This document shows positions 17,110-29,241 of a stretch of 53,395 bases of DNA, piece after piece. The stretch's first letter is position 1. The number at the start of each line of letters is the position of its first letter. The stretch spans positions 1-53,395 of the forward strand of contig JAIUNK010000033.1 of NCBI GenBank assembly GCA_020161845.1. The letters run 5' to 3'. The DNA comes from Actinomycetota bacterium. Lineage in GTDB: Bacteria > Actinomycetota > Actinomycetes > Actinomycetales > Dermatophilaceae. The notes beneath the pieces were generated by a model, which was not told the origin of the DNA, made no database searches, and worked only from the letters and a program-made list of their open reading frames with translations. The position numbers were made by a program, and so were the translations under genes.

Positions 17110-17110
17110 G

Positions 17111-17183
17111 TGGGCCCGGCCGGGTTCGAACCGACGACACCCGCGGTGTAAACGCGGTGCTCTACCAGCTGAGCTACAGGCCC
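17111..17183 (-). tRNA. tRNA-Val (anticodon TAC)
   Basis: Full cloverleaf on the minus strand: acceptor GGGCCTG paired with CGGGCCC, D-arm TAGCTCAGCTGGTAGAGC, anticodon stem CCGCG/CGCGG with loop TTTACAC (anticodon TAC, valine), and T-arm GTCGG-TTCGAAC-CCGGC. The 3' CCA is not encoded. The discriminator A is one base away from the ATG of the nif3-like gene. Confidence 0.96.
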
Positions 17184-17289: not shown

Positions 17290-18516
17290 TCAGCTGGTCC
17301 GGGCGGCCCGCAGTTCGGCGCCGGCGATCGCCGCCATCGCCTCGATCGGAGAATCCTGGCCGGCCCGCCGCGCGAACGCCCGCGCGACCCGGAGCACCCC
17401 GCGGGCCGCTCCCTCGCGCAGCCCCTCCGGCAGCGACTCGATGTCGCGGGTCTTGGCCGCCCCGACGATCCGCCGCGACATCTTCGCCGCGGCAAAGAGC
17501 CACGCCTCGCGGCGCCAGGCCGCCAGCAGATCCGCCAGGGTGACGTCGTCCCACACCCGGGGGTCGCGGCGCTGCGGCCAACGCGCCCGGAACTCCGCCT
17601 CGAACGCCGTCCAGGTGATCAGGATCTGGTCCAGGCACCAATCGGCCCGCTCGTCCTCGCCGAGCGCGAGGGCCCGGGCGGCCGCGATGACGTAGTTCGC
17701 GAAGATCGCGCCGAGGTCGAAGGCGAGCGGCCCATAGAAGGCGAATTCGCTGTCGAACGCCTTGACGCTGTCGCAGGTCGCCGACCCCTGCGGGGCCCGC
17801 ACCATCACCGACCCGGTGTGCAGGTCGCCGTGGATCAGCGCCTCGGCCTTGGTCATGAACAGCCACTTCGCGTGGCCGTCGGCCCGACGCATCACCGGGT
17901 CGGCGGCGAACTCGGCGGCGTCGGCGGCGTTGCCCGGCAGCACCGCGTTGCGGCCGGCATCGACGATCGGCTCGGTGAAGACCAGGTCCTCGGTGATGGC
18001 GCACAGCTGCGGATTCACCGCGGCGGCGATCGCCTCGGCGAGGGCCTCGCGCTCCATCCCGAGTGCCGAGGTGCCGAACGCGAGGGCGCCCACATAGCGG
18101 CCCACCGCGGCGGCGGCACCCTCGTGGCGCTGCCCGTCGATGAGCGCGCCGCGCCACACCTGGTGGTCGGAGAGGTCCTCCATCGCGATGATGTAGCGCT
18201 CGCTGTCGTAGTGGTAGACCGCCGGCACCAGCTCGGGGGTGAGCGCGCCGTGCGCCCGCAGCGCCAACACCTCGTGCCGGGCCCGGTCCGGCGTCATCGG
18301 CCAGCCCTCGCCGGTCATCCGCACGTAGGGCAGCGCCTGCTTTAGGCAGATCCCCCGCCCGCCGGCGTCCGCGGCCAGGAACACGAGGTTGAGGTTTCCG
18401 TCACCGACCTCCTCGCAGCGCACCAGGTGGTCGGGGTCGATGCGGGCGGCCAGCTCGGGCACCGAGCGCAGGTAGTCCGGGACGGTGGCCGGCGTCAAGA
18501 ATTCGTACGAACCCAT
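17290..18516 (-). CDS. mtnK: S-methyl-5-thioribose kinase
   Basis: 408 residues from the ATG at 18516, with GAGGAGGA upstream. Protein-kinase-like (APH/ChoK) fold: nucleotide-binding EVGDGNLNLVF, MEDLSDHQVWR (112-122), catalytic HGDLHTGSVMV (229-239) and DSEFAFYGP (255-263). These are the family signatures of MtnK, which phosphorylates C1 of 5-methylthioribose and, in some bacteria, of 5-deoxyribose. It is the last gene of a minus-strand set mtnA-binding protein-ATPase-permease-mtnK. No MTA nucleosidase or phosphorylase lies nearby, which argues for use of an imported sugar and not for standard methionine salvage. Confidence 0.9.
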   Translation of the reverse strand: MGSYEFLTPATVPDYLRSVPELAARIDPDHLVRCEEVGDGNLNLVFLAADAGGRGICLKQALPYVRMTGEGWPMTPDRARHEVLALRAHGALTPELVPAVYHYDSERYIIAMEDLSDHQVWRGALIDGQRHEGAAAAVGRYVGALAFGTSALGMEREALAEAIAAAVNPQLCAITEDLVFTEPIVDAGRNAVLPGNAADAAEFAADPVMRRADGHAKWLFMTKAEALIHGDLHTGSVMVRAPQGSATCDSVKAFDSEFAFYGPLAFDLGAIFANYVIAAARALALGEDERADWCLDQILITWTAFEAEFRARWPQRRDPRVWDDVTLADLLAAWRREAWLFAAAKMSRRIVGAAKTRDIESLPEGLREGAARGVLRVARAFARRAGQDSPIEAMAAIAGAELRAARTS

Positions 18517-18576
18517 GGGTTCCTCCTCCTCAGCTGCGTGGGAGCAGCTCTGGGCTGACGTGTCGGAGCCGCGAGA

Positions 18577-18645
18577 GCACGCCGTACGGCGCCCCGCGCG
18601 CACGCCGTACGACCCCCCAAACGCAGGCCGTACGGCGCCCCGCGG
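18577..18645. repeat. Three 23-bp direct repeats between mtnK and permease
   Basis: Units beginning at 18577, 18600 and 18623 share GCACGCCGTACG; the first and third share all of GCCGTACGGCGCCCCGCG. The array lies in the mRNA leader of mtnK and contains the palindrome GCCGTACGGC, so each copy could form a small hairpin that affects relative expression of kinase and transporter. Confidence 0.65.
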
Positions 18646-18646
18646 G

Positions 18647-19672
18647 TCACACCGCGGGGGTGTAGCGCACCTTCTTGCGGGAGATCGTGAAGGAGAACAG
18701 CAGCGCCACGATGAGCACGAGGCCCTTGGCGGTGTCCTGGTAGAAGTACGAGAAGCCCTTCATCGTCAGGCCGGTCAGCACGATGCCCACGAGCAGCGCA
18801 CCGAGCAGCGTGCCCCACGCATTGGGCTTGCCGATGCCCAGCACCGAGGTCCCCACCAGCGCGACCGCGACCGCCTCCAGCAGCGAGGAGGCACCGGCGT
18901 TCACATCGCCCTGCCCGATCCGGGAGACCAGGATCATCCCGCCGATCGCGGCAAAGACGCTGCACAACACATACGCCAGGCCGCGGTAGCGGTTGATCGG
19001 CACCCCCGCCAGGCGGGACGCCTCGGGGTTGGCGCCGATCGCATACATCATCCGGCCCCACTTGGTGCGGGCCAGGATGAACCAGGTCAGCACTGTCAGC
19101 AACAGCATCAGGATCACCGGGTAGGGCACGCCGGCGATCGCCCCGCGGTCGATCTGCAGGAAGTCGTCGGTGAACTTGCCCGGCGCGGTGTCACCATTGC
19201 GCAGCGTCATCCCGGCGGAGACCGACTGGCCCTCGACGGGGATCAGCTTGGCGCCCTGGATGACGAACATCGTGCCGAGCGTGGCGAGCAGGTCGGGGAT
19301 CTTGCAGACCACGATGAGCACGGCGTTTAACAGCCCGACGACCACTCCGGCGAGGAGCACCACGATCACCGCCGTGCTGCCGGTCAGGTTGTAGAAGACC
19401 ATCGTCATCGCGGCCATCTGCACCGCCAGCCCGGCCGTGGACCCGATCGAGAGGTCCATCCCGCCGACCGCCATGACATAGGTCATGCCCAGTCCCAGGA
19501 TCGCGGTCACCGAGGAGTACTTGAGCATCGCGAACAGCGAGCCCGAGGTGCGAAACGCCGGCTCGGAGGCCATGAAGAAGACGAAGAGCAGCACCGTGAC
19601 GACGATGAAGCCGTATTTGACCACCGCGTCCTGGACCCGCATGCGGGTCGTCAGCTCCTGATCCGCGCTCAT
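18647..19672 (-). CDS. Sugar ABC transporter permease (RbsC/LsrC-like)
   Basis: 341 residues with about nine to ten hydrophobic helices, of the BPD_transp_2 (ribose/autoinducer-2/rhamnose) type. Family signatures include GGMDLSIGS and GANPEASRLAGV-type cytoplasmic loops. A single permease gene implies a homodimeric channel, as in ribose systems. It begins one base after the ATPase stop codon and is clearly co-expressed with it. The substrate is probably a five-carbon sugar, judged from the neighbouring mtnK, mtnA and LsrF-like genes. Confidence 0.9.
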   Translation of the reverse strand: MSADQELTTRMRVQDAVVKYGFIVVTVLLFVFFMASEPAFRTSGSLFAMLKYSSVTAILGLGMTYVMAVGGMDLSIGSTAGLAVQMAAMTMVFYNLTGSTAVIVVLLAGVVVGLLNAVLIVVCKIPDLLATLGTMFVIQGAKLIPVEGQSVSAGMTLRNGDTAPGKFTDDFLQIDRGAIAGVPYPVILMLLLTVLTWFILARTKWGRMMYAIGANPEASRLAGVPINRYRGLAYVLCSVFAAIGGMILVSRIGQGDVNAGASSLLEAVAVALVGTSVLGIGKPNAWGTLLGALLVGIVLTGLTMKGFSYFYQDTAKGLVLIVALLFSFTISRKKVRYTPAV

Positions 19673-19673
19673 C

Positions 19674-21209
19674 TCACGCCACCTCCGACATGCTCGTCAC
19701 GATGGCGTCGCCATCGACCTGGGATGTGTACGCGTCGAGCCGGACCGCGCCGTCCGCGAGCACGATGATCCGGTCGGCCACCTCCCGGATCTCCTCGACG
19801 TCGCTGCTCAGCACGACGACGCAGGCCCCGCCGCCGGCCACGGTACGGGCGTGCGCCGAGATGTCCCGGCGGGCCCCGATGTCGACCCCACGGAACGGCT
19901 CGTCCAGCAGGATGACCTGCGGCGATTCGCCGAACCAGCGGCCCACGACGACCTTTTGCTGGTTACCCCCGGACAGGGCGTCCACGCTCTGGTCCGGCCC
20001 GGTCGACACGACGCCGAAGTCCTTGATGATGCCCCTGGCCCGCTGGTCCTCCTGGCCGCGATTGACGACGCCGGCCCGGCACAGCGCGCCGAGGAAGGGC
20101 AGCGAGACGGTGCGGGCGATGCTCCAGCCGGGCAGCATCGCCTCGCTGGCCCGGTCCTCGGGGACCAGGAAGATGCCGCGCCGGACGGCCTCGCCGGCGC
20201 GGCGGGGGGCGTACGGCGCCCCGTCCAGCCGCATGCTCCCGGCCCGCCACGTGTCCACCCCGAAGATGCCCCGGGCCAGCTCTGACTTGCCGGCGCCGAT
20301 CAGCCCGACGATGCCGGTGACCTCGCCATAGCGCAGGTCGAGGTCGAACGGGGTGGAACGGCGCAGCAGCTGCACCCCGCGCAGCTCCAGCGCCGTGCGC
20401 TCGCCGCGCCGCTCGACCAGTCGTTCGGCAGCCAGGGCGACGGACTCGCCGAGCATCGACTTCACGGCAGCCGCCATGTCGAAGGGGGCGCGTTGTTCGT
20501 TGTGGATCCGGCCGTCGCGCAGCACCACGAGGTCGTCGGCCATGCTGCGGATCTCCTCGAGGTGGTGCGAGACGTAGAGGATCGCGACCCCCTCCTCGCG
20601 CAGCCGCCGGATGACCGCGAACAGTCGGTCGACCTCCGCCTGGGACAGCGTGGAGGTGGGCTCGTCGAGGACGAGCACCTTTGGGCGCTGGATCAGGGCC
20701 CGCGCGAGGAGCAGCAGCTGCCCGTCGGCGATGCCCAGCTCGAAGACGTCCTGGCGCAGCTTGGCCTCCGACCAGTTCAGGTCGAGGGTGGCGGCGATCT
20801 CCCGGGCCCGCGGCAGGATCCGGCGCAGCGACCGGACCGCGGGGATGCCGCCCTGCACGATCTCTTCGAAGCAGAGGTTCTCGGCGACGGTCAGGCCGGG
20901 CACGAGGCTGTCGCCGATGCGTTGGTGCACGGTTTGGATGCCCGCCTGGCGGGCCTCGCCCGGCGTGCTGAGAGACACCGGTTCGCCGGCGACGAGGATC
21001 TCACCACCGGCCCCGGCGTACACCCCCGACAGGATCTTGATCAGGGTGCTCTTGCCGGCGCCGTTGGCGCCGAGCAGGGCGGTGACCCGGCCCGCGGGCA
21101 GCGCCATCGACACGCCCTTGAGCACCTGGTTGGCGCCGAACGCCATCGTCATGTCCCGCAGCTGCAGCACGGGTGTGCCGGGGTCGCCGTCAGCCACCAT
21201 GTTCACCAC
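19674..21209 (-). CDS. Sugar ABC transporter ATP-binding protein (two NBDs)
   Basis: 511 residues with two nucleotide-binding domains fused in tandem, as in RbsA/LsrA/MglA. Domain 1 has Walker A GANGAGKST, and its signature loop is degenerate (FELGIADGQ), followed by VLDEPTSTLS. Domain 2 has a degenerate Walker A (GLIGAGKSE), the signature LSGGNQQKV and LLDEPFRGVD. Asymmetric signatures are common in this class. The GTG at 21209, eight bases after AAGGA, is the best-placed start; an internal ATG at 21200 is possible. It energises uptake of the sugar bound by the adjacent lipoprotein. Confidence 0.9.
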   Translation of the reverse strand: MVNMVADGDPGTPVLQLRDMTMAFGANQVLKGVSMALPAGRVTALLGANGAGKSTLIKILSGVYAGAGGEILVAGEPVSLSTPGEARQAGIQTVHQRIGDSLVPGLTVAENLCFEEIVQGGIPAVRSLRRILPRAREIAATLDLNWSEAKLRQDVFELGIADGQLLLLARALIQRPKVLVLDEPTSTLSQAEVDRLFAVIRRLREEGVAILYVSHHLEEIRSMADDLVVLRDGRIHNEQRAPFDMAAAVKSMLGESVALAAERLVERRGERTALELRGVQLLRRSTPFDLDLRYGEVTGIVGLIGAGKSELARGIFGVDTWRAGSMRLDGAPYAPRRAGEAVRRGIFLVPEDRASEAMLPGWSIARTVSLPFLGALCRAGVVNRGQEDQRARGIIKDFGVVSTGPDQSVDALSGGNQQKVVVGRWFGESPQVILLDEPFRGVDIGARRDISAHARTVAGGGACVVVLSSDVEEIREVADRIIVLADGAVRLDAYTSQVDGDAIVTSMSEVA

Positions 21210-21288
21210 GCGGACCGTCCTTGTTGTTGGTCGATGACGCTGGTGGGGGCGGCCACCTCGACCGCCCCCACCGCGCAGGGCGTAGGCC

Positions 21289-22401
21289 TTAGAACGTGAC
21301 CGCCGGGATCCAGTCGGCCGAGGACACCTTGGAGATGTTCAGCTCCGGGGCGTTCTTGCGCAGGTCGTCCATGTTCTTGATGTTCTTGCTGCGCAGCATC
21401 TCGCTGGTCACCAGGATCGGCGGGAAGTCCTCCTTGGCGCCTTCCTTGACGGTGCCGGCCATGTGCAGGGCCAGCGTGCGCACCACGGCCGCGCCGATGG
21501 CGTTGGGGTCGGTCGCGCCGGTGGCCACCCACGGGCTGTCCGGGGCGCTCATCAGCTCGATGTCGGCGGTGGAGATGTCGGCGCCATAGACCTTGACCTT
21601 GCCCTTGAGGTTGGGGTTGGTGCCGAGCGCGGACAGCGTCGCCTTGGTCAGCTCGTCGTACGGTGCGTAGATCGCGACCACGTCGGCATTGGACTTCAGC
21701 GCGTTGTCGACCATCGGCGCGGTGTCGGTGGCCGTCGACGGGGTGTATTTGCCCGTCATGAACTTCTGGGTCCACTGGTTCTTGGCGATGTAGTCCTTCC
21801 AGACCGCGTCGCGGCGGTCCAGCGGGGCGATGCCCAGCACGTTGACATAGCCGACCGGCTTGCCGGTGCCGACGTCCTTGAGCATCTGGTCCAGCACCAG
21901 GCTGGCCATCTTGGCGTCGGACTGCTGGGTCTGCACGGCGCGCTGGGCGCACTTTTGGATCTCGACGTCATAGATGACGACCTTGATGCCCTTGTCGATG
22001 GCCTTGTTCACACCGGGGCACAGGGTGTCCGGGAAGCCGTGCCGCACGATGATGCCCTTGGCGCCGGAGGCGATGGCCTGGTCCAGCTGGGTGGCCTGCT
22101 GGGCGTTGTCGCCCTGGGCGTCGTAGACGTCCAGCTTCAGCTTGAGCGCCTCGGCCTGCTTCTTGGTGCCGTTGAGGTATTGCTGGAAGTAGTCGCCCTG
22201 GCCGGACTGCTGCACGATGGCGATCTTGACCTCCCCGGCGTCGAACGGCGCGGGCGCCTTGCCCTTCGCCTCGCCCACGCTGGCGCTGGCGTTGTCCTTG
22301 GCGGTGGTCGTGGAGCTGCTGGTGGACGATCCCTGGCTGCACGCCGCGAGCGGCAGGACGCAGAGTCCGGCAACCACGGCGAGGACGGAATGCGTGCGCA
22401 T
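21289..22401 (-). CDS. Sugar ABC transporter substrate-binding lipoprotein
   Basis: 370 residues from the ATG at 22401, preceded by AGAGGA. A signal peptide of about 20 residues ends in the lipobox LAAC, so the protein is a lipoprotein outside the membrane. A Ser/Thr-rich linker leads into a periplasmic-binding-protein type 1 fold of the ribose-binding family (VKIAIVQQSGQGDYFQQYLNGT, later ADVVAIYAPYDELT). The ligand is not predictable from sequence alone. Position between mtnA and the transporter genes points to 5-methylthioribose, 5-deoxyribose or a related deoxypentose. Confidence 0.88.
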   Translation of the reverse strand: MRTHSVLAVVAGLCVLPLAACSQGSSTSSSTTTAKDNASASVGEAKGKAPAPFDAGEVKIAIVQQSGQGDYFQQYLNGTKKQAEALKLKLDVYDAQGDNAQQATQLDQAIASGAKGIIVRHGFPDTLCPGVNKAIDKGIKVVIYDVEIQKCAQRAVQTQQSDAKMASLVLDQMLKDVGTGKPVGYVNVLGIAPLDRRDAVWKDYIAKNQWTQKFMTGKYTPSTATDTAPMVDNALKSNADVVAIYAPYDELTKATLSALGTNPNLKGKVKVYGADISTADIELMSAPDSPWVATGATDPNAIGAAVVRTLALHMAGTVKEGAKEDFPPILVTSEMLRSKNIKNMDDLRKNAPELNISKVSSADWIPAVTF

Positions 22402-22462
22402 GGATGATTCCTCTCGACGGCCCGCGCCGCGATCGGGTGCGGGGAACAACGGGGTGGTTCGC

Positions 22463-23500
22463 TCAGCCGGCGATGGCGCTGAGCAGGTGCGGATCCGGGT
22501 GGACCGCCGGTTCGACGACTCCTTGTTCGGTGACGACGGCGCTGATCAGGTCGTGCGGGGTGACATCGAAGGCCGGGTTGAAGCCGCGTGCCGTCGCGGG
22601 CGCGCAGCGCACCCCGGCCACGGCGAGCACCTCCTCTTCGGGGCGCTCCTCGATGACGATTTGGTCCCCCGTCGCGGTGTGCAGGTCCACCGTGGAGGAC
22701 GGGGCGGCCACCACGAAGGGGATCCCGGCCCGCTGGCAGGCCAGCGCGAGGGCCACCGAACCGACCTTGTTGGCGGTGTCGCCGTTGGCGGTGATCCGGT
22801 CGGCGCCGATGATCACGACGTCCACCAGTCCCCGCAGGATCGTGCTGGCGGCGGCGCCGTCGGCCTGCACCACGTGCGGGATGCCGTCCTGCGTGAGTTC
22901 CCAGCTGGTCAGCCTCGCGCCCTGCAGCAGCGGGCGGGTCTCGTCGGCATACACCAGCTCCAGGCGGCCGCGTTGGTGCAGTTCGTGGATGATGCCGTAC
23001 GCCGTGCCCCAGGCGGTGGTCGCCAGCGCGCCGGTGTTGCAGTGGGTGCCGACCCGCACCATGTCTGCGCCGGTGCGGGCCAGGATCCAGTCGGCGCCGA
23101 GCCGGGACAGGGCCCGATTCGCGGCCTCGTCCTCGGCGATCAGGCGCTGCGCCCCGGCCAGCACGGCCTCGAGGCCCTCGGCCATCGCGGGGCGCACCTG
23201 GTCGACGCCCCAGGCCAGATTCACCGCGGTCGGGCGGGCGTCGCGGATCCGGTCCACCTCGCGCTGCAGCCGCGCCTCGTCCCAGCCCAGCTCGCGCCCC
23301 TGCAGCATGGCCATCGCCACGCCCAGGGCCCCGGCCGCGCCCAGCGCGGGGGCGCCGCGCACCGCCAGATCGCGAATGGCCGTGACGAGGGCGTCCACCG
23401 TGCGTACGTCGAGGTAGATCTCCTCGTGCGGCAGCCGGGTCTGATCGATCAGGCGGATCGCCGGTCGTGGATCGGTCGACCACGCGATGGCTACGACCAT
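22463..23500 (-). CDS. mtnA: S-methyl-5-thioribose-1-phosphate isomerase
   Basis: 345 residues from the ATG at 23500 (AGGGG upstream). It converts the cyclic aldose 1-phosphate to the ketose 1-phosphate. The eIF2B-like fold is clear: RGAPALG (48-54), the catalytic cysteine in GTHCNTGALAT (C154) and catalytic aspartate in GADRITANGDTANKVG (D233) are in place. MtnA enzymes also isomerise 5-deoxyribose 1-phosphate. It is the first gene of the minus-strand operon, and its promoter carries the GTTGTnnnACAAC operator 25 bp before the start codon. Confidence 0.93.
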   Translation of the reverse strand: MVVAIAWSTDPRPAIRLIDQTRLPHEEIYLDVRTVDALVTAIRDLAVRGAPALGAAGALGVAMAMLQGRELGWDEARLQREVDRIRDARPTAVNLAWGVDQVRPAMAEGLEAVLAGAQRLIAEDEAANRALSRLGADWILARTGADMVRVGTHCNTGALATTAWGTAYGIIHELHQRGRLELVYADETRPLLQGARLTSWELTQDGIPHVVQADGAAASTILRGLVDVVIIGADRITANGDTANKVGSVALALACQRAGIPFVVAAPSSTVDLHTATGDQIVIEERPEEEVLAVAGVRCAPATARGFNPAFDVTPHDLISAVVTEQGVVEPAVHPDPHLLSAIAG

Positions 23501-23524
23501 CAGGATGCCCCTTCGACAGTGGAG

Positions 23525-23537
23525 GTTGTCCGACAAC
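23525..23537. promoter_or_regulatory. GntR-type operator at mtnA promoter
   Basis: The perfect dyad GTTGT-CCG-ACAAC lies just after the -10 box of the mtnA promoter, where a bound repressor would block transcription start. The identical arms recur at 24465-24477 in front of the aldolase-SDR gene, and AGGTTGT is shared beyond the dyad. Confidence 0.75.
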
Positions 23538-23545
23538 TTGGGTAG

Positions 23546-23575
23546 AGAGTAAAGATGACCTATTCTCGCTGTCAA
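23546..23575 (-). promoter_or_regulatory. Promoter of the mtnA-mtnK operon
   Basis: On the minus strand, -35 TTGACA (23575-23570) and -10 TACTCT (23551-23546) are separated by 18 bp. The -35 box is a consensus match, rare in this GC-rich window. The operator dyad follows the -10 box by eight bases. Confidence 0.7.
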
Positions 23576-23603
23576 TAACCATCCGCTCTCGATCCGCGCA
23601 CTA

Positions 23604-23704
23604 GCCGCTCACTCGCCGCTTCCTTGTCGGCCCGCTAGCCGCTCACCTGCCGGCCGCCAGCCGCTCACCTGCCGCCCGCCAGCCGGGCACCAGCCGCCCA
23701 CCAG
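23604..23704. repeat. Imperfect 22-bp tandem repeats upstream of gntR
   Basis: Units starting at 23639, 23661 and 23683 follow the pattern AGCCGCTCACCTGCCGSCCGCC, with a degenerate unit near 23604. The array fills the space between the mtnA promoter and the gntR ribosome-binding site. The gntR promoter must lie within or before it. Confidence 0.65.
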
Positions 23705-23714
23705 GAGGATGTGG

Positions 23715-24434
23715 ATGCCCGCCCGACCGACCCTGGTGTCGCGCATCTCGGCGGATCTGCGCGCCGACATCGCCGCGGGCCACTACGCCACCGGAGACCG
23801 GCTTCCCCCCGAAGTCACGTTGAGCAAGCGATTCGGGGTCTCGCGGCCCACCGTCCGGGCGGCCCTGCGCGAGCTGGAGGGCCTGGGCCTGGTGCAGACC
23901 CAGCACGGGGTGGGCACCTTCGTGGTGGAACAGCCCGCGGTCCGGGCCGGCCTGGAGCAGCTCGAGTCGATCACCGACTCGATCCGGGCCACCGGCAAGG
24001 AACCCGGAATGCTCTACAGCAGCAGGTTGACCCGCGTGGTGCTGCCCGAGGAGGCCGCCCGGATGGGGGTCGACAGCCAGACCGAGGTGGTAGAACTGCG
24101 GCGCACCATCACCGCGGACGGCGAGGTGGTCGCCTACTCCTACGACCTCATGCCGACGGCCATCCTGCCGCCGGGTTTCGACCTGGAACGGCTCACTGGG
24201 TCGATCTTCGACTTCCTGCGCAACGAACTCGGGGTGTACGCCGTGCATGGCCTCGCCGAGGTGCACGCCGTGCACTCCGATCATGTCGGCTGGGGCCCGG
24301 AGGCGGCGGCGCACAACCTCTTCGTGCTGCTCAACCAGCTGCATTACGACCGCTCGGACCGTCTGCTGCTCTACTCGCGCACCTATTTCATCGAGGGCCG
24401 CTACTCCTTCACGATCTTCCGCCGCGAGCGATGA
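23715..24434 (+). CDS. GntR-family regulator (HutC/UTRA type)
   Basis: 239 residues from the ATG at 23715, with AGGAGG seven bases upstream. The N-terminal winged helix is canonical (RLPPEVTLSKRFGVSRPTVR, then GLVQTQHGVGTFV). The C-terminal ~160 residues fit a UTRA ligand-binding domain (ELRRTITADGEVVAYS, late LLLYSRTYFIEGRYSF). Such proteins usually repress a catabolic operon and are released by a phosphorylated sugar. It sits between two divergent gene sets whose promoters share the operator GTTGTnnnACAAC, so it very probably controls both. A 5-deoxyribulose 1-phosphate-like intermediate would be a sensible inducer. Confidence 0.9.
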   Translation: MPARPTLVSRISADLRADIAAGHYATGDRLPPEVTLSKRFGVSRPTVRAALRELEGLGLVQTQHGVGTFVVEQPAVRAGLEQLESITDSIRATGKEPGMLYSSRLTRVVLPEEAARMGVDSQTEVVELRRTITADGEVVAYSYDLMPTAILPPGFDLERLTGSIFDFLRNELGVYAVHGLAEVHAVHSDHVGWGPEAAAHNLFVLLNQLHYDRSDRLLLYSRTYFIEGRYSFTIFRRER

Positions 24435-24437
24435 TGC

Positions 24438-24467
24438 TTGACGACCCCTCCGGTCGCGTCTTAGGTT
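24438..24467 (+). promoter_or_regulatory. Promoter of aldolase-SDR operon
   Basis: -35 TTGACG (24438-24443) and -10 TAGGTT (24462-24467), 18 bp apart, the same spacing as the mtnA promoter. It begins four bases after the gntR stop codon, so the catabolic genes have their own regulated promoter. Confidence 0.65.
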
Positions 24468-24477
24468 GTTTAACAAC
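24465..24477. promoter_or_regulatory. GntR-type operator at aldolase-SDR promoter
   Basis: The perfect dyad GTTGT-TTA-ACAAC overlaps the end of the -10 box and the predicted transcription start. Its arms are identical to those of the dyad at 23525-23537. Confidence 0.75.
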
Positions 24478-24498
24478 GATCGGACCTCGGGGGTGACC

Positions 24499-26604
24499 AT
24501 GGCGGACCCAACGGGACGCGCTGGGCGCCCCCGCAGCGACGGCCGCGCCGTGCCGGACCGCGCGCTCGACGACCTCGTGCGCGTGTCTCGACTGCTCGGC
24601 GCGGACCCCACCCTGGTGCTTCACGGCGGCGGCAACACCTCCGTGAAGTCGACCTGGCGCGACGTCACAGACCGCGATGTCGAGGTGTTGTGGGTCAAGG
24701 GCAGCGGCGCCGACCTGGCGCAGGTGACCGCCGCGGGCTTCGCCCCGCTGCGGTTGGACCGGCTTCGCGAGCTGCTGCCCCCCGTCACCCTGTCCGACAC
24801 GGACCTGCGCAACGAGCTGCGGTGTGCCCTGCTCGATGCGCAGGCACCAGACCCCAGCGTGGAGACTCTCGTCCACGCGCTGCTGCCCCACCCGGCGGTC
24901 GTGCATTCGCACGCCGACGCGGTGCTGGCGCTGACCGACACCCCGAACGGGCCGGCCCAGGTCGTGGCGGCGTGGGGCGAGGAGGTCGTCGTGGTGCCCT
25001 ACGCCATGCCCGGCCCTCGCCTCGTCGCCGCCTGCGCCGTCGCCTGGGCCGGCCGCCCTCCCGCCGCCATCGGCCTCGTCGTCCTGCAACACGGCCTGTT
25101 CACGGTGGGCGCCACCCCACAGGAGGCCTACCAGCGCCACCTGGACCTGGTGGCTCGCGCAAGCGCCGTGGCCGGGCTGCCCGCTCCGGGGACCGCTTCC
25201 GGCGACCCGGCCGGTGGCAACCTGCCGGCTGGCGATCTGCTAGCCGAGGGCGCTGACTCCGCGCCGCTGCCCGGCCACCCGGGCGCCGACGCCCTGACCG
25301 ACCGCGAGGTGCTTGCGCTAGCGAGCGACCGCGCGCGCTGGTGCGCCGCGGCGGGCCGGCCGCTCATCGTCACCTCCGACCCAGGGCCGGAACTCCGCGA
25401 TCAGCTCGACGTCGCGGGCCTCGCCGAGGCGCTGCGCCGTGGCCCCGCGACGCCCGACCACGCCCTGTTCACCCGCGCCTTCCCGCTCGTCCTAGACGGT
25501 GGGCTCGACAAGAACAATGGCCTCGACGAGGCGACGCTGGCCGCCTACGGCCGCGCGTACGCGCAGTTCGCCGGTGACACCCAGGCCGCCGGGGACGCCG
25601 AGTTGGTCGAAGAGCCGGACCTGGCCCCGCGGGTGGTCTGGCAGCGCGGGATGGGCCTGCGAACTGCGGGCAGCACCCGAGCGAACGCGGTCCGGGCAGC
25701 GGATATCGCCCGGCACACCCTGGCCGTCGCCGCGGCGGCGCAGCGGCTCGGCGGCTACACCCCCGCCGACCCCGAGCACGTCCACGACCTCGAATACTGG
25801 CCCTATCAGCGGGCCAAGGCGGCCCGCGCGGACGCCACCGCCGGCCCGCTGACCGGCCGGGCGGCCCTGGTCACCGGCGCGGCCAGCGGCATCGGCCGGG
25901 CCTGCGCGCAGGCGCTGCTGACGGCCGGCGCCAGCGTCGTCGGCTGGGACCGCTCCCCCGACATCGCCACCACCTTCGAGCACCCCGAGTGGCTGGGGCT
26001 GCCGGTCGACGTCACCGACTCGGCCGCAATGGCGGCCGCCCTCCGCCGCCAGGTGCTCGACCTCGGCGGCCTCGACGTCCTCGTCGTCGCGGCCGGGATC
26101 TTCCCCGCCGCCGCCCACCTCGGCGAGCTCGACATGGCCACCTGGCGGCGCACGATGGCCGTCAACGTGGACGCGGTGGCCGACCTCTACGGGCAGGTCA
26201 CCCCGCTGATCACGCAAGCCCCCGGGGGCGGTCGGGTGGTCCTCATCGCCAGCAAGAACGTCCCCGCCCCCGGCCCCGGGGCGGCCGCCTACTCGGCGTC
26301 CAAGGCGGCCGTCACGCAGCTCACCCGGGTCGCGGCGCTGGAGTGGGCGGCGCACGGCGTACGGGTCAATATGCTGCACCCGGACGCGGTCTTCGACACG
26401 GGCCTGTGGACCCCGGAGCTGCTCGCGGCGCGCGCCGAGCACTACGGGATGAGCATCGAGGCCTACAAGCGGCGCAACCTCCTGCACACCGAGGTCACCA
26501 GCGCCCGCGTGGGGGAGCTCGCGGCGGCGATGGCGGGCGACCTGTTCTCCTGTACGACGGGTGCGCAGATCCCGATCGACGGCGGCAACGATCGCGTCAT
26601 CTGA
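24499..26604 (+). CDS. Class II aldolase / short-chain dehydrogenase fusion
   Basis: 701 residues from the ATG at 24499 (GTG at 24493 is an alternative). Residues ~20-230 are a class II aldolase domain with zinc histidines H136 and H138 (VVHSHAD) and H198 (LQHG). A middle region leads to the SDR domain at ~452-701: TGAASGIG (459-466), catalytic Ser near 585, YSASK (598-602). Length and order match RhaEW-type rhamnulose-1-phosphate aldolase/lactaldehyde dehydrogenases, but no rhamnose kinase or isomerase is present. In this cluster the SDR could oxidise the aldehyde product, or directly oxidise C4 of a 5-deoxyribulose 1-phosphate. First gene of the plus-strand operon. Confidence 0.9.
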   Translation: MADPTGRAGRPRSDGRAVPDRALDDLVRVSRLLGADPTLVLHGGGNTSVKSTWRDVTDRDVEVLWVKGSGADLAQVTAAGFAPLRLDRLRELLPPVTLSDTDLRNELRCALLDAQAPDPSVETLVHALLPHPAVVHSHADAVLALTDTPNGPAQVVAAWGEEVVVVPYAMPGPRLVAACAVAWAGRPPAAIGLVVLQHGLFTVGATPQEAYQRHLDLVARASAVAGLPAPGTASGDPAGGNLPAGDLLAEGADSAPLPGHPGADALTDREVLALASDRARWCAAAGRPLIVTSDPGPELRDQLDVAGLAEALRRGPATPDHALFTRAFPLVLDGGLDKNNGLDEATLAAYGRAYAQFAGDTQAAGDAELVEEPDLAPRVVWQRGMGLRTAGSTRANAVRAADIARHTLAVAAAAQRLGGYTPADPEHVHDLEYWPYQRAKAARADATAGPLTGRAALVTGAASGIGRACAQALLTAGASVVGWDRSPDIATTFEHPEWLGLPVDVTDSAAMAAALRRQVLDLGGLDVLVVAAGIFPAAAHLGELDMATWRRTMAVNVDAVADLYGQVTPLITQAPGGGRVVLIASKNVPAPGPGAAAYSASKAAVTQLTRVAALEWAAHGVRVNMLHPDAVFDTGLWTPELLAARAEHYGMSIEAYKRRNLLHTEVTSARVGELAAAMAGDLFSCTTGAQIPIDGGNDRVI

Positions 26605-26684
26605 ACCAGCGCACCACAAGACCAAGACCGACCCGGACCAAGAACACCACGGCTCGCCCAGCGACCAGGACGGAGACCCCCGCG

Positions 26685-27113
26685 ATGCAGTGCGGTTGCA
26701 CCGAACACCTGGAGTACCGCTTCGGCGACCACGGCCCGGCGTACGTCATCCAGGGCGAGACCAGCGACATCGGCGTCCTGCGGCTGCGTCCCGGCGACGA
26801 CATGACCAACCACATCCACCACTTCTGCGACGAGTCCTTCCTGGTCATGGAGGGTCGCTGCACCCTGTGGGTGAACTGTCGGGATCGCTACGAGATCGGC
26901 CCAGGCGACGTCTACCGGTGCGGCCCGGCCGAGATGCACTACTTCGTCAACGAATTGGACGCCCCGTTCCGGATGTTCTTCATCAAGTCCCCGGCCAGCC
27001 CCGGTGACACGGTCAACCTGCCGTGGCGGCCCGGTGACCCGATCCCCGCCGTCCCCCCAACGCCGGAGCCCCCGGCGCCCGCGTCCCCAACGACTGCGAC
27101 CCCGGCGCACTGA
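26685..27113 (+). CDS. Small cupin-domain protein
   Basis: 142 residues starting MQCGCTEHLEYRFGDHGPAY. A single cupin barrel spans roughly residues 30-105: the motif 1 ligands are in NHIHHFCDESFLVMEG, and motif 2 ends in PAEMHYFVNE. All likely metal ligands (His, His, Glu, His) are present. The C-terminus is a Pro/Ala/Thr tail. It might be a metal-dependent isomerase or epimerase acting on a phosphorylated deoxypentulose, filling the place of LsrG. An acireductone dioxygenase role is less likely, because the family is different and the other methionine-salvage genes are missing. It lies 80 bp after the fusion gene in the same operon. Confidence 0.8.
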   Translation: MQCGCTEHLEYRFGDHGPAYVIQGETSDIGVLRLRPGDDMTNHIHHFCDESFLVMEGRCTLWVNCRDRYEIGPGDVYRCGPAEMHYFVNELDAPFRMFFIKSPASPGDTVNLPWRPGDPIPAVPPTPEPPAPASPTTATPAH

Positions 27114-27161
27114 CCCAGGCGCCCAATCGACCCCCCGAATCCGCACCCGAAAGGCAGACCC

Positions 27162-28043
27162 ATGGCAGACCTCGACGGCAACCTCGACGCCCGCAGCTAC
27201 GGCCTCGACCGGCCCCAGGAGAGCCACGGCTTCCCCGTCAAGGGGGCCGGCCAGCTCGACTTCGGGATGCGGCACCGGCTGGCCCGGATCTTCGGCGGCG
27301 ACGGCCGCACCGTGATGCTGGCATTCGACCACGGCTACTTCCAGGGCCCGACGAGCGGCCTGGAGCGGGTCGACCTCTCCATCGTGCCGCTCGCGCCGTA
27401 CGCCGACGCGCTCATGGCCACCCGCGGCATCATCCGCTCCGTGATCCCCGCGACCTGCGACAACGCGCTGGTCCTGCGGGCCTCCGGCGGCCCGTCGGTG
27501 CTCAAGGAACTCTCTGACGAGCGGGTCGCGATGGACATGACCGACGCGGTGCGGATCGACGCCGCGGCCGTCGCCGTGCAGGTGTTCATCGGCGGCGAGC
27601 ACGAGACGCAGTCGATCGCCAACATGACCAGCCTGGTCGATGCGGGCTATGGGGTGGGGATCCCGGTGCTGGGCGTCACCGCGGTGGGCCGCGACATGGT
27701 CCGCGACGCCCGCTACCTCGGCCTGGCCACCCGCATGATCGCCGAACTGGGCGCCCAGCTGGTCAAGACCTATCACTGCGAGGAGTTCGAGAAGGTGACC
27801 GCCGCCTGCCCGGTGCCGGTGATCATGGCCGGCGGCAAGAAGCTGCCGATCCTCGACGCGCTGACGATGGCCCGCCGCGCTGTCGACGAGGGCGCGGCCG
27901 GCGTCGACATGGGCCGCAACATCTTCCAGCGCCGGGCCCCGGAGGCGATGGTGCAGGTTGTGCGGGCCCTGGTGCACGACGGCCTGAGCGCTGCGGACGG
28001 GCTGGCGATGTATCGCGACCTGTCCGGCGGGCAGGACGACTGA
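27162..28043 (+). CDS. lsrF: LsrF-like 3-hydroxy-5-phosphonooxypentane-2,4-dione thiolase
   Basis: 293 residues. It aligns by eye almost end to end with E. coli LsrF: a MADLDG start, RIFGGDGRTVMLAFDHGYFQ with GPTSGLER (54-69), VQVFIGGEHETQSI, GVTAVGRDMVRDARY, VKTYHCEEFE with the catalytic lysine at 202, and GVDMGRNIFQ. LsrF cleaves the phosphorylated dione made from autoinducer-2 and transfers the acetyl group to CoA, giving DHAP and acetyl-CoA. No lsrK, lsrG, lsrR or LuxS gene is in the window. The partners here are MtnK, MtnA and an SDR, which suggests a different entry route to the same intermediate. The start follows GAAAGGC. Confidence 0.9.
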   Translation: MADLDGNLDARSYGLDRPQESHGFPVKGAGQLDFGMRHRLARIFGGDGRTVMLAFDHGYFQGPTSGLERVDLSIVPLAPYADALMATRGIIRSVIPATCDNALVLRASGGPSVLKELSDERVAMDMTDAVRIDAAAVAVQVFIGGEHETQSIANMTSLVDAGYGVGIPVLGVTAVGRDMVRDARYLGLATRMIAELGAQLVKTYHCEEFEKVTAACPVPVIMAGGKKLPILDALTMARRAVDEGAAGVDMGRNIFQRRAPEAMVQVVRALVHDGLSAADGLAMYRDLSGGQDD

Positions 28044-28057
28044 GCGGCGGGGCACGC

Positions 28058-28738
28058 ATGGACGACGGCGGCACCACCCAGACCGGCCCGGGCCGGGCCG
28101 AGCCGGACGAACAGCAGCTCCGGGAGCAGGTCTGCGAGATCGGCCGCAACCTGTGGCGCAAGGACATGGTCGCCGCCAACGACGGCAACATCACCGTGCG
28201 CTTGGGGCCCGACCGGTTCCTGGCCACCCCGACCGGCACCAGCAAGGGCTACCTGCGTCCGGAGCTGCTGGCCGTCGTGGACGCCGCGGGCCGCCCGGAA
28301 CCGGGTTGCCCGGTGCGGCCCTCCTCGGAGCTGCCGATGCACCTGCGGGTCTACGCGCGCCGTCCCGACGTCGGCGCCGTCGTGCATGCCCACCCCATGT
28401 ATGCCACCGTCTGGGCCGTCGCCGGCGAGGGGCTGCCCCGGCAGATGCTCCCCGAGACCGTCGTCGCGATGGGGCCGGTGCCGCTGGCGCCGTACGCGAC
28501 CCCCTCCACCGACGCGGTGCCGGACTCGATCGAACCCTTCCTGACCGGCGCGGCCGTGCTCTTGGAGCAGCACGGCGCGCTGACCTGGGGGCCGGACCTG
28601 ATGAGCGCCTACCTGGCGATGGAGCGGCTGGAATACACGGCCAAGATCAGCTACCTGCTGCGCCGGATCGGCGCCGAGCGAGACCTGCCCGCCGCCGAGA
28701 TTGCCCGACTCAAGGAGCGCTTCGGCACGACGTACTGA
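28058..28738 (+). CDS. FucA-like class II aldolase (candidate 5-deoxyribulose-1-P aldolase)
   Basis: 226 residues. Zinc-dependent class II aldolase of the L-fuculose-phosphate aldolase group: phosphate-binding NDGNITVR and TGTSKGY, catalytic Glu in SSELPMH (E91), zinc ligands H110 and H112 (VVHAHP) and H172 (EQHGAL). Relatives in the DHAP shunt (Ald2, DrdA) cleave 5-methylthioribulose or 5-deoxyribulose 1-phosphate to DHAP plus an aldehyde. That fits MtnK and MtnA in this cluster. The gene begins 14 bp after lsrF and ends the operon, converging on the peroxiredoxin gene 26 bp away. Confidence 0.88.
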   Translation: MDDGGTTQTGPGRAEPDEQQLREQVCEIGRNLWRKDMVAANDGNITVRLGPDRFLATPTGTSKGYLRPELLAVVDAAGRPEPGCPVRPSSELPMHLRVYARRPDVGAVVHAHPMYATVWAVAGEGLPRQMLPETVVAMGPVPLAPYATPSTDAVPDSIEPFLTGAAVLLEQHGALTWGPDLMSAYLAMERLEYTAKISYLLRRIGAERDLPAAEIARLKERFGTTY

Positions 28739-28764: not shown

Positions 28765-29241
28765 TTAGCCGACGGGCAGGGCCGCCACGGCCGCGTCCAC
28801 GCCCGAGAAGTCCCGCCGCTCCCCCGGGCCGTTCACCAAGGACCACGCGATCGTCATGTCGCGGTCGACGAGAAAGGTCCCGCGGCGCGCGAACCCGCCG
28901 GAGGGCTCCAGTACGCCGTAGCCGCGGGCCACCTCGCCATGCGGCCAGAAGTCCGAGAGCAGCGGGAAGAAGAAGGCCTCGGCGTCGTCCCAGGCGCGCA
29001 GGGCGAACATCGGATCGCACGAGATCGCGACCGCCTGGACCGCGGGGTTGTCGAACCGCTCCCGCTCGTCGCGCAACTCGCGCAGTTCCCCGGTGCAGAT
29101 GCCGGAGAAGGCGAAGGGATAGAAGACCACCAGGACCGCCCTGTCGGCGACCAGCTCGGACAGCGTCCGGCGGGTCCCCAACTGGTCCACCAGGGTGAAG
29201 TCGGGGGCCGCGTCGCCGACGGCGGGGGGCGCTGCACTCAT
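28765..29241 (-). CDS. ahpE: One-cysteine peroxiredoxin, AhpE-like
   Basis: 158 residues with the thioredoxin fold of peroxiredoxins. The peroxidatic cysteine lies in PFAFSGICTGELRELRD; there is no second cysteine in the expected resolving position, as in M. tuberculosis AhpE (Rv2238c). It reduces hydrogen peroxide, organic hydroperoxides or peroxynitrite, with reducing power from mycoredoxin or mycothiol in related species. A CACAGT box is six bases before the ATG, so the gene may be leaderless. Its place before DUF3052 and aceE is conserved in Actinobacteria. Confidence 0.92.
   Translation of the reverse strand: MSAAPPAVGDAAPDFTLVDQLGTRRTLSELVADRAVLVVFYPFAFSGICTGELRELRDERERFDNPAVQAVAISCDPMFALRAWDDAEAFFFPLLSDFWPHGEVARGYGVLEPSGGFARRGTFLVDRDMTIAWSLVNGPGERRDFSGVDAAVAALPVG

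Follow-up and report, generated by a model that had tools for sequence, protein, structure and literature searches.

Why a bacterium would place the kinase MtnK and the isomerase MtnA in one gene island with the thiolase LsrF is the question raised by positions 17290-28738 of the window analysed here, a stretch of 53,395 nucleotides (contig JAIUNK010000033.1, assembly GCA_020161845.1) from an actinobacterium of the family Dermatophilaceae. The island (~11.5 kb) comprises ten genes, five on the minus strand and five on the plus strand, which diverge from a central gap. We posit that it encodes an oxidative-thiolytic pathway for the catabolism of 5-deoxyribose or 5-substituted analogues such as 5-methylthioribose, a reading which, taken as a whole, we consider evenly poised between right and wrong. 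An earlier note on this DNA had proposed a 5-deoxypentose/methylthioribose catabolic island with its own importer uniting MtnK/MtnA and LsrF; that proposal is supported here and all genes named in it were found in place, although they number ten rather than the nine it had counted.

A profile scan of the island proteins against NCBIfam placed three of them above curated cut-offs, namely the S-methyl-5-thioribose (5-deoxyribose) kinase MtnK (17290..18516, minus strand; 357 bits to TIGR01767, cut-off 275), the 5-methylthioribose-1-phosphate/5-deoxyribose-1-phosphate isomerase MtnA (22463..23500, minus strand; 391.5 bits to TIGR00512, cut-off 279) and the LsrF-like thiolase (27162..28043, plus strand; 444.6 bits to NF006081, cut-off 297). 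Between MtnK and MtnA, on the same strand, lie a ribose-type ATP-binding cassette (ABC) permease (18647..19672; PF02653), an ATPase with two ABC domains (19674..21209; two stretches of PF00005) and a lipoprotein solute-binding protein (21289..22401; PF13407, lipobox LAAC in the sequence). The plus strand further encodes a GntR/UTRA regulator (23709..24434; PF00392 and PF07702), a fusion of a class II aldolase with a short-chain dehydrogenase/reductase (SDR; 24499..26604; PF00596 with PF00106/PF13561), a cupin (26685..27113; PF07883) and an accessory FucA/DrdA-like class II aldolase (28058..28738; 164 bits to PF00596). Start codons were checked for eight of the ten genes (all but the permease and the ATPase), and the family scans used slightly different starts for MtnK, the binding protein, the fusion and the cupin. 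The whole set recurs in the same order at two loci in other genomes (designated L006 and L008), and two more (L010 and L055) have all but two of the genes, so the island is not a chance grouping; it is real and recurring, and probably forms one regulon.

The binding protein bears on which sugar is imported. Its best relative in a PDB sequence search was 4ry8 (E 5.9e-50, 174 bits), titled 5-methylthioribose transporter solute binding protein TLET_1677, followed by 5ulb (3.3e-31) and 4yv7 (6e-11), while the best ribose-named entry reached 1.9e-8, the best LsrB 9.1e-6 (LsrB chains scored 27-29 bits) and the D-xylose-binding protein 3m9w 5e-4. Foldseek likewise ranked 4ry8 first (E 5.7e-27, template modelling score 0.85, 34% identity) for a predicted model whose mean predicted local distance difference test score was 87.9 with four relatives added and 47 from the window protein alone. 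Assignment to the LsrB type failed, at 35.8 bits against a model cut-off of 384, and by sequence and predicted fold the protein appears to belong with the 4ry8-type 5-methylthioribose importers. Solved relatives of MtnK are 2pyw and 2olc, the latter named methylthioribose kinase. Because a 4ry8-type binding protein occurs together with MtnK and MtnA, a substrate of the 5-deoxyribose/5-methylthioribose type is highly probable; sequence reaches this class, and the choice between its two members lies beyond it. Import had been argued in the earlier note from the lack of a methylthioadenosine (MTA) nucleosidase or phosphorylase. That lack holds for the ten island genes but does not extend to the genome: a search covering the window's own genome and 29 of the LsrF genomes described below found an MTA/methylthioinosine-type phosphorylase outside the island in the same genome, so the argument from a missing phosphorylase is not supported, and the better evidence for import is the binding protein.

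In the proposed pathway the ABC importer would bring the sugar in, MtnK would phosphorylate it at C1 and MtnA would isomerise the product to 5-deoxyribulose-1-phosphate (CH3-CHOH-CHOH-CO-CH2OP) or to the corresponding methylthio compound. The C4 hydroxyl would then be oxidised with NAD+ by the SDR half of the fusion, giving CH3-CO-CHOH-CO-CH2OP, or 3-hydroxy-5-phosphonooxypentane-2,4-dione, which the title of NF006081 specifies as substrate. LsrF chemistry is the coenzyme A (CoA)-dependent cleavage of this dione to dihydroxyacetone phosphate (DHAP) and acetyl-CoA, and the island enzyme is predicted to act likewise. C4 oxidation would thus link MtnA to LsrF, since its product is the dione for which LsrF is named, and this step supplies the chemical connection that the earlier note had left open. 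A possible function of the cupin is isomerisation of the dione, by analogy with LsrG of the autoinducer-2 (AI-2) pathway, although a role as isomerase or LsrG-like helper is speculative, and the FucA-like enzyme may provide a second, direct aldol outlet.

The residues expected for these activities are present. Island LsrF shares 161 of 280 aligned residues with Escherichia coli LsrF (57.5%), and its K202 aligns with E. coli K203, a lysine in all 83 aligned rows to which we presume a functional role. The alignment also places H137, H139, H199 and E123 in the aldolase half of the fusion, which we take to be the metal ligands and the aldolase glutamate, and Y599 and K603 in the SDR half, presumably the active-site tyrosine and lysine. 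The last two are kept in 50 of 52 rows, with gaps in the other two (L024, under the score limit, was left out of this alignment), and the SDR half is the only dehydrogenase recognised by Pfam among the ten island proteins. The fusion as a whole scored 776 bits to NF006196 (cut-off 831) and 343 bits to the rhamnulose-1-phosphate aldolase/dehydrogenase model TIGR02632, well under its cut-off of 567.75; among ten LsrF-linked fusions scanned, four passed NF006196 (L006, L030, L057 and L062) and none TIGR02632. RhaEW, a known rhamnose enzyme to which the fusion is kin, has the same class II aldolase and SDR architecture, and its substrate rhamnulose-1-phosphate is the one-carbon-longer homologue of the substrate proposed here, whereas the island fusion falls below TIGR02632 and is paired with MtnA and LsrF; neither rhamnose isomerase nor rhamnulokinase was found among the ten island proteins. 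For the FucA-like aldolase no NCBIfam cut-off was reached, and its PDB matches were 6vop (89 bits) and 6btd (79 bits), which we take to be DrdA.

The genomic surroundings of LsrF elsewhere are consistent with an oxidative step. A search of genome contigs kept the best 80 of at least 584 LsrF relatives (counts of 80 exclude L001-L005; counts of 81 include L002). Looking for mtnK, mtnA and lsrF within ~12 kb of one another, as the earlier note had suggested, returned four loci among these 80 (L006, L008, L010 and L055). MtnA alone is present at eight (these four with L025, L030, L057 and L079), against 0.27 expected for random placement in an assumed 4.3-Mb genome. L006, L008 and L010 are kin, and MtnA of L025 lies 4.7 kb off on the opposite strand; on the LsrF tree, built by a quick method with Shimodaira-Hasegawa-like approximate likelihood ratio support only and with L009 (a short contig, no MtnA seen) in the labelled group, the starred branches force at least five changes of the MtnA label. 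Tight three-gene operons are formed by MtnA, fusion and LsrF in L057 and by fusion, MtnA and LsrF in L030, with no MtnK match in either locus. A survey of the order around L030's genome was uninformative because LsrF is rare in it, exceeding its cut-off in two of 250, one of which is L030's own genome. The FucA-like aldolase has no match in L030, L055 or L057.

Within 4 kb of LsrF (591 kb in all), 46 of the 80 loci have an SDR match, against three matches in the other 735 kb, and an SDR or a medium-chain dehydrogenase/reductase (MDR) is near LsrF in 59, many of them without an aldolase domain. By type, the partner is a two-domain fusion in 35 loci, an SDR alone in 13 (11 of these open reading frames (ORFs) being at most 424 residues long, with L042 and L024 ambiguous), an aldolase domain alone in two, a zinc MDR in 12 (11 close to LsrF and that of L039 ~9 kb away), an FGGY-kinase ORF without a dehydrogenase of these kinds in five and none in 13, several of which are short contigs and one of which, L055, has its fusion 8 kb away. 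As the partners in the SDR-alone and MDR loci show no match to the aldolase domain, a dehydrogenase rather than an aldolase appears, from this sequence survey, to be the usual partner of LsrF, with the aldolase domain optional.

Other genes also accompany LsrF. ORFs were labelled FGGY, epimerase-like, MDR or RuBisCO-like by clustering, and one or two members of each cluster were checked against Pfam. The FGGY-kinase community occurs in nine of 81 loci, a ribulose-phosphate-3-epimerase-like ORF in 20 (for example L027:1507-2268, and L013) and a RuBisCO-like protein in seven; 12 of the 20 epimerase-like cases are in Planctomycetota or Acidobacteriota records. Zinc MDRs stand beside LsrF without an SDR match in L046, L049, L052, L056, L064, L066, L067, L072, L074, L075 and L084, mostly metagenome-assembled genomes (MAGs) labelled delta- or desulfo-bacterial. 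A cupin match adjoins LsrF in L011, L012 and L019, all with an FGGY-kinase ORF. Just upstream of LsrF in L055, on the other strand, a 151-residue ORF (L055:9306-9758) has no family match at 1e-15, and by its motif we take it to resemble a small LsrG/ABM- or EthD-like protein.

The fate of the MtnA product was followed at genome level in 50 of the 80 LsrF genomes. MtnA exceeded its cut-off in 44 and MtnB in none, which suggests that the MtnA product there goes elsewhere than methionine salvage; 34 of the 50 had weaker matches to the MtnB model, such as are also obtained with class II aldolases other than MtnB. None of the ten island proteins scanned passed TIGR03328 (MtnB), for which the FucA-like protein scored 75.6 against 137.05, and none was assigned to MtnC or MtnD. 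In methionine salvage (mtnK, mtnA and mtnB-C-D) the first two enzymes are common to the island, whereas MtnB, MtnC and MtnD are not assigned in it.

The two halves of the island also occur in other combinations. The upper module (importer, MtnK and MtnA) has already been seen and annotated in other bacteria (L098, L099 and L101): it has no adjoining lower half in Sinorhizobium meliloti (L098), and on an Enterobacter plasmid (L101) it is accompanied by MtnB, MtnC and MtnD. On plasmids of Shinella (L099:2020-13401) and Ensifer (L103:7065-18603) the fusion, a 5-methylthioribose (MTR)-type importer, mtnK and mtnA form one cluster with a split transketolase and a gene for a RuBisCO-like protein, and LsrF was not seen in the sequence inspected. 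These rhizobial loci (L098, L099 and L103) share the importer family with the island (binding proteins 40-41% identical) and, in L099 and L103, the fusion, but the lower half of these last two is split transketolase with RuBisCO-like protein where the island has LsrF. The lower module (LsrF with the fusion) occurs with an FGGY kinase and a different importer in Shinella L100, and L104 has LsrF, a fusion and an importer. Such swapping of halves fits a common 5-deoxypentulose-phosphate intermediate. A 4.4-kb contig (L007:61-4031) encodes in a row an LsrF 78% identical to that of the window, two transketolase halves and a RuBisCO-like protein, uniting both lower halves, and in six Chlorobiaceae MAGs (L032, L036, L038, L040, L070 and L082) the fusion, LsrF and a RuBisCO-like protein are successive on one strand.

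The two strands of the island also have similar regulatory sequences. An exact palindrome, GTTGTCCGACAAC (23525..23537), lies between the divergent operons, and a second, GTTGTTTAACAAC (24465..24477), precedes the fusion gene; both are probable GntR operators. L006 and L008 have palindromic sites at both positions, with counterparts of the second at L006 7503 and L008 7560, and L010 (7886) and L009 (180) have the site before the fusion. The palindrome was first noticed by eye and then searched by computer; within two mismatches the whole window holds five matches against 1.28 expected, three of them outside the island. Both operons probably share one regulon, which the GntR protein would control by its putative binding at these sites.

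Several observations weigh against oxidation preceding cleavage. In a rival reading the island is a DHAP shunt that carries its own aldehyde dehydrogenase: the fusion aldolase (or the FucA-like enzyme) would cleave the MtnA product to DHAP and (methylthio)acetaldehyde, the SDR domain would oxidise the aldehyde as proposed for RhaEW, and LsrF would act on a side substrate. The metal ligands and glutamate of the fusion aldolase are intact, and oxidising first leaves that domain without a clear job. A fusion adjoins MtnK or MtnA while LsrF is missing from the sequence inspected, as distinct from the whole genome, in Shinella (L099), Gemmatirosa (L102, a MtnK-MtnA-fusion run without LsrF in 22 kb), Ensifer (L103), Ruegeria (L105, mtnA-fusion) and Mariluticola (L110). 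These fusions are more simply read as cleaving their substrate first and then oxidising the aldehyde, and the rival is given weight for the island for that reason. A shunt of MtnK, MtnA and Ald2 is established in E. coli, according to part of PMC12632272, and RhaEW is a precedent for the fusion: in the consulted portion of PMC3870299, RhaEW without NAD+ forms neither DHAP nor lactate, and its authors conclude that the aldolase depends on the dehydrogenase domain, although by analogy the same NAD+ requirement would be predicted by oxidation before cleavage. The SDR domains of the LsrF-less fusions fall outside the window's clade and group with those of LsrF-linked fusions from Chlorobi and from four Hyphomicrobiales; the active site in that group has SKQA in place of SKNV (61 rows, bootstrap unsettled). 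Every one of the 14 rows in the window's own clade, the window included, is LsrF-linked, which is weak support given that 52 of the 61 rows were so from the outset. A survey by similarity to the fusion rather than to LsrF found it at E <= 1e-100 in 41 of 396 Actinomycetota genomes, in 42 places. In 35 of the 40 neighbourhoods examined (the window's own locus and one of two G688 places were left out) a rhamnose isomerase match was present; of the other five, one has LsrF with an epimerase-like gene, one LsrF with MtnA (the L010 contig) and three lack all of these genes, two of the three being on short contigs (3.0 and 3.5 kb). Only the window and the LsrF/MtnA genome exceeded 750 bits. Most actinobacterial fusions thus appear by sequence to be of the rhamnose kind, the window's subtype being rare and distinct; an adjacent aldolase-SDR gene was therefore dropped as a specific sign of MtnA pathways, and only the high-scoring subtype counts as evidence for them. 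The aldolase-first rival nevertheless leaves LsrF unexplained despite tight MtnA, fusion and LsrF operons in unrelated lineages, the partner of LsrF is in many loci a dehydrogenase in which no aldolase domain is matched, and the fusion is under the RhaD-type cut-off; we regard this rival as possible but somewhat unlikely.

Two further readings are less compatible with the data. MtnK could take the role of LsrK in an Lsr-like uptake of AI-2 or another diketo-sugar, as the close identity of the thiolase to E. coli LsrF, the ribose-type importer and the FGGY-kinase ORFs that accompany LsrF relatives in other actinobacteria might indicate; yet a Pfam search of the ten island proteins, which did not extend to the rest of the genome, found no FGGY kinase (LsrK), MtnA would be useless, and the binding protein is far nearer to 4ry8 than to any LsrB chain, leaving this reading highly improbable. 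It is likewise improbable that the island is a pair of independent neighbours, a minus-strand MTR importer with MtnK/MtnA next to an unrelated rhamnose-like or AI-2-like operon. The halves do lie on opposite strands and each is found without the other (L098; L100), but similar palindromes precede both (in L006 and L008 as well), L006, L008 and L010 have the same divergent pair, and MtnA is co-directional and tightly spaced with the fusion and LsrF in L030 and L057.

Beyond the island, the oxidative-thiolytic reading invites a more general hypothesis, which we offer tentatively and consider rather unlikely in its full form: that LsrF has an older and wider role across many phyla as the last step of a route turning 5-deoxypentose waste derived from S-adenosylmethionine (SAM) into DHAP and acetyl-CoA, its AI-2 role being secondary. 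The parts would be a phosphorylase or MtnK, then MtnA, an SDR or MDR and LsrF, joined in some lineages by a 3-epimerase-like or RuBisCO-like isomerase, including the RuBisCO-like protein of green sulfur bacteria whose gene stands beside LsrF and the fusion. Against the oxidative-thiolytic reading of the island itself, 18 of the 80 LsrF loci have no such dehydrogenase near (the 13 with no partner and the five with an FGGY-kinase ORF). Six of the 50 LsrF genomes lack MtnA, namely the planctomycete L026 and the actinobacteria L011, L012, L019, L058 and L077; as these five carry an FGGY-kinase ORF at the locus, LsrF seems by sequence to serve other inputs too. In 149 Planctomycetota genomes (MtnA over cut-off in 128, LsrF in 23, MtnB in 11), MtnA had a match in all 23 genomes with LsrF and in 112 of the other 126 (Fisher p 0.13), and MtnB exceeded its cut-off in none of 23 against 11 of 126 (p 0.22). 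Co-occurrence there was set aside as uninformative, MtnA being near-universal in the phylum. In two planctomycete contigs (G126:C344 and G149:C2) a class II aldolase-like gene with a weak MtnB match adjoins an LsrF-like gene that the model matched only from about position 21-28 on.

The island appears to be an insertion between genes that are neighbours in relatives. It is bordered on the left by tRNA-Val(TAC) (17110..17183, minus strand; ARAGORN) and on the right by a peroxiredoxin gene (28765..29241, minus strand), which adjoins tRNA-Val or Nif3 in relatives. Nif3, tRNA-Val, peroxiredoxin, DUF3052 and AceE are consecutive in the same-genus L090, and tRNA-Val lies between the Nif3 and peroxiredoxin genes in all three same-genus relatives in which it was sought (L090-L092). 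The gap from tRNA-Val to peroxiredoxin varies from <0.1 kb in L090 through ~1.3 kb in L091 and L092 to ~11.5 kb in the window, and the five same-family loci L093-L097 have 0.15-0.42 kb between Nif3 and peroxiredoxin. The island block was absent from the equivalent site in all eight of these relatives. LsrF exceeded its cut-off in two of the 38 genomes of the relatives search, the window's own and one from another family, and in none of the three same-genus or 20 same-family genomes. G+C content in 2-kb steps (0.69-0.74 across the island) gave no signal of foreign origin; horizontal acquisition is considered probable from the absence of the block in kin.

Parts of this scheme are familiar. The drdK-drdI-drdA cluster and E. 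coli mtnK-mtnA-ald2 likewise use a kinase, an isomerase and cleavage to DHAP, some clusters with sugar transporters, as described in portions of PMC6079011 and PMC12632272. The island shares with these DHAP shunts an MtnK-type kinase and an MtnA-type isomerase; in the shunts one class II aldolase performs the last step and an aldehyde is released, while the island adds a dehydrogenase fusion and an LsrF thiolase with acetyl-CoA as predicted product. With the Lsr system it shares LsrF, predicted to act on the identical substrate with identical products. There the dione is made from phosphorylated 4,5-dihydroxy-2,3-pentanedione via LsrK and LsrG, whereas in the island it would arise by oxidation of 5-deoxypentulose phosphate, and the ten genes include neither an FGGY kinase nor an LsrB-type protein. 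The earlier note knew of no described pathway joining MtnK/MtnA to LsrF, and open-licence PubMed Central papers yielded none: mtnK and lsrF appeared together only in PMC8609655, in the part consulted as genes in separate up-regulated lists, and no paper was found on LsrF with 5-deoxyribulose, on 5-deoxyribose with acetyl-CoA and a thiolase, or joining at least three of mtnK, transketolase, short-chain dehydrogenase and RuBisCO-like protein. None of the titles listed was on this combination, and no paper was found for the PDB code 4ry8. In the papers searched, the joining of MtnK/MtnA to LsrF is therefore undescribed, the upper half being already known.

Radical-SAM and polyamine chemistry leave 5'-deoxyadenosine and methylthioadenosine as waste. 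The known way of disposing of them, by enzymes of the MtnK/MtnA type with an aldolase, sets an aldehyde free, and gene clusters for it are far from ubiquitous (PMC6079011, in part). If true, the thiolytic route would regain both carbon halves as central metabolites together with one NADH and would avoid the acetaldehyde of the known pathway. It could also account for LsrF relatives at loci without an LsrK-like kinase, and would give a context for the RuBisCO-like protein of green sulfur bacteria.

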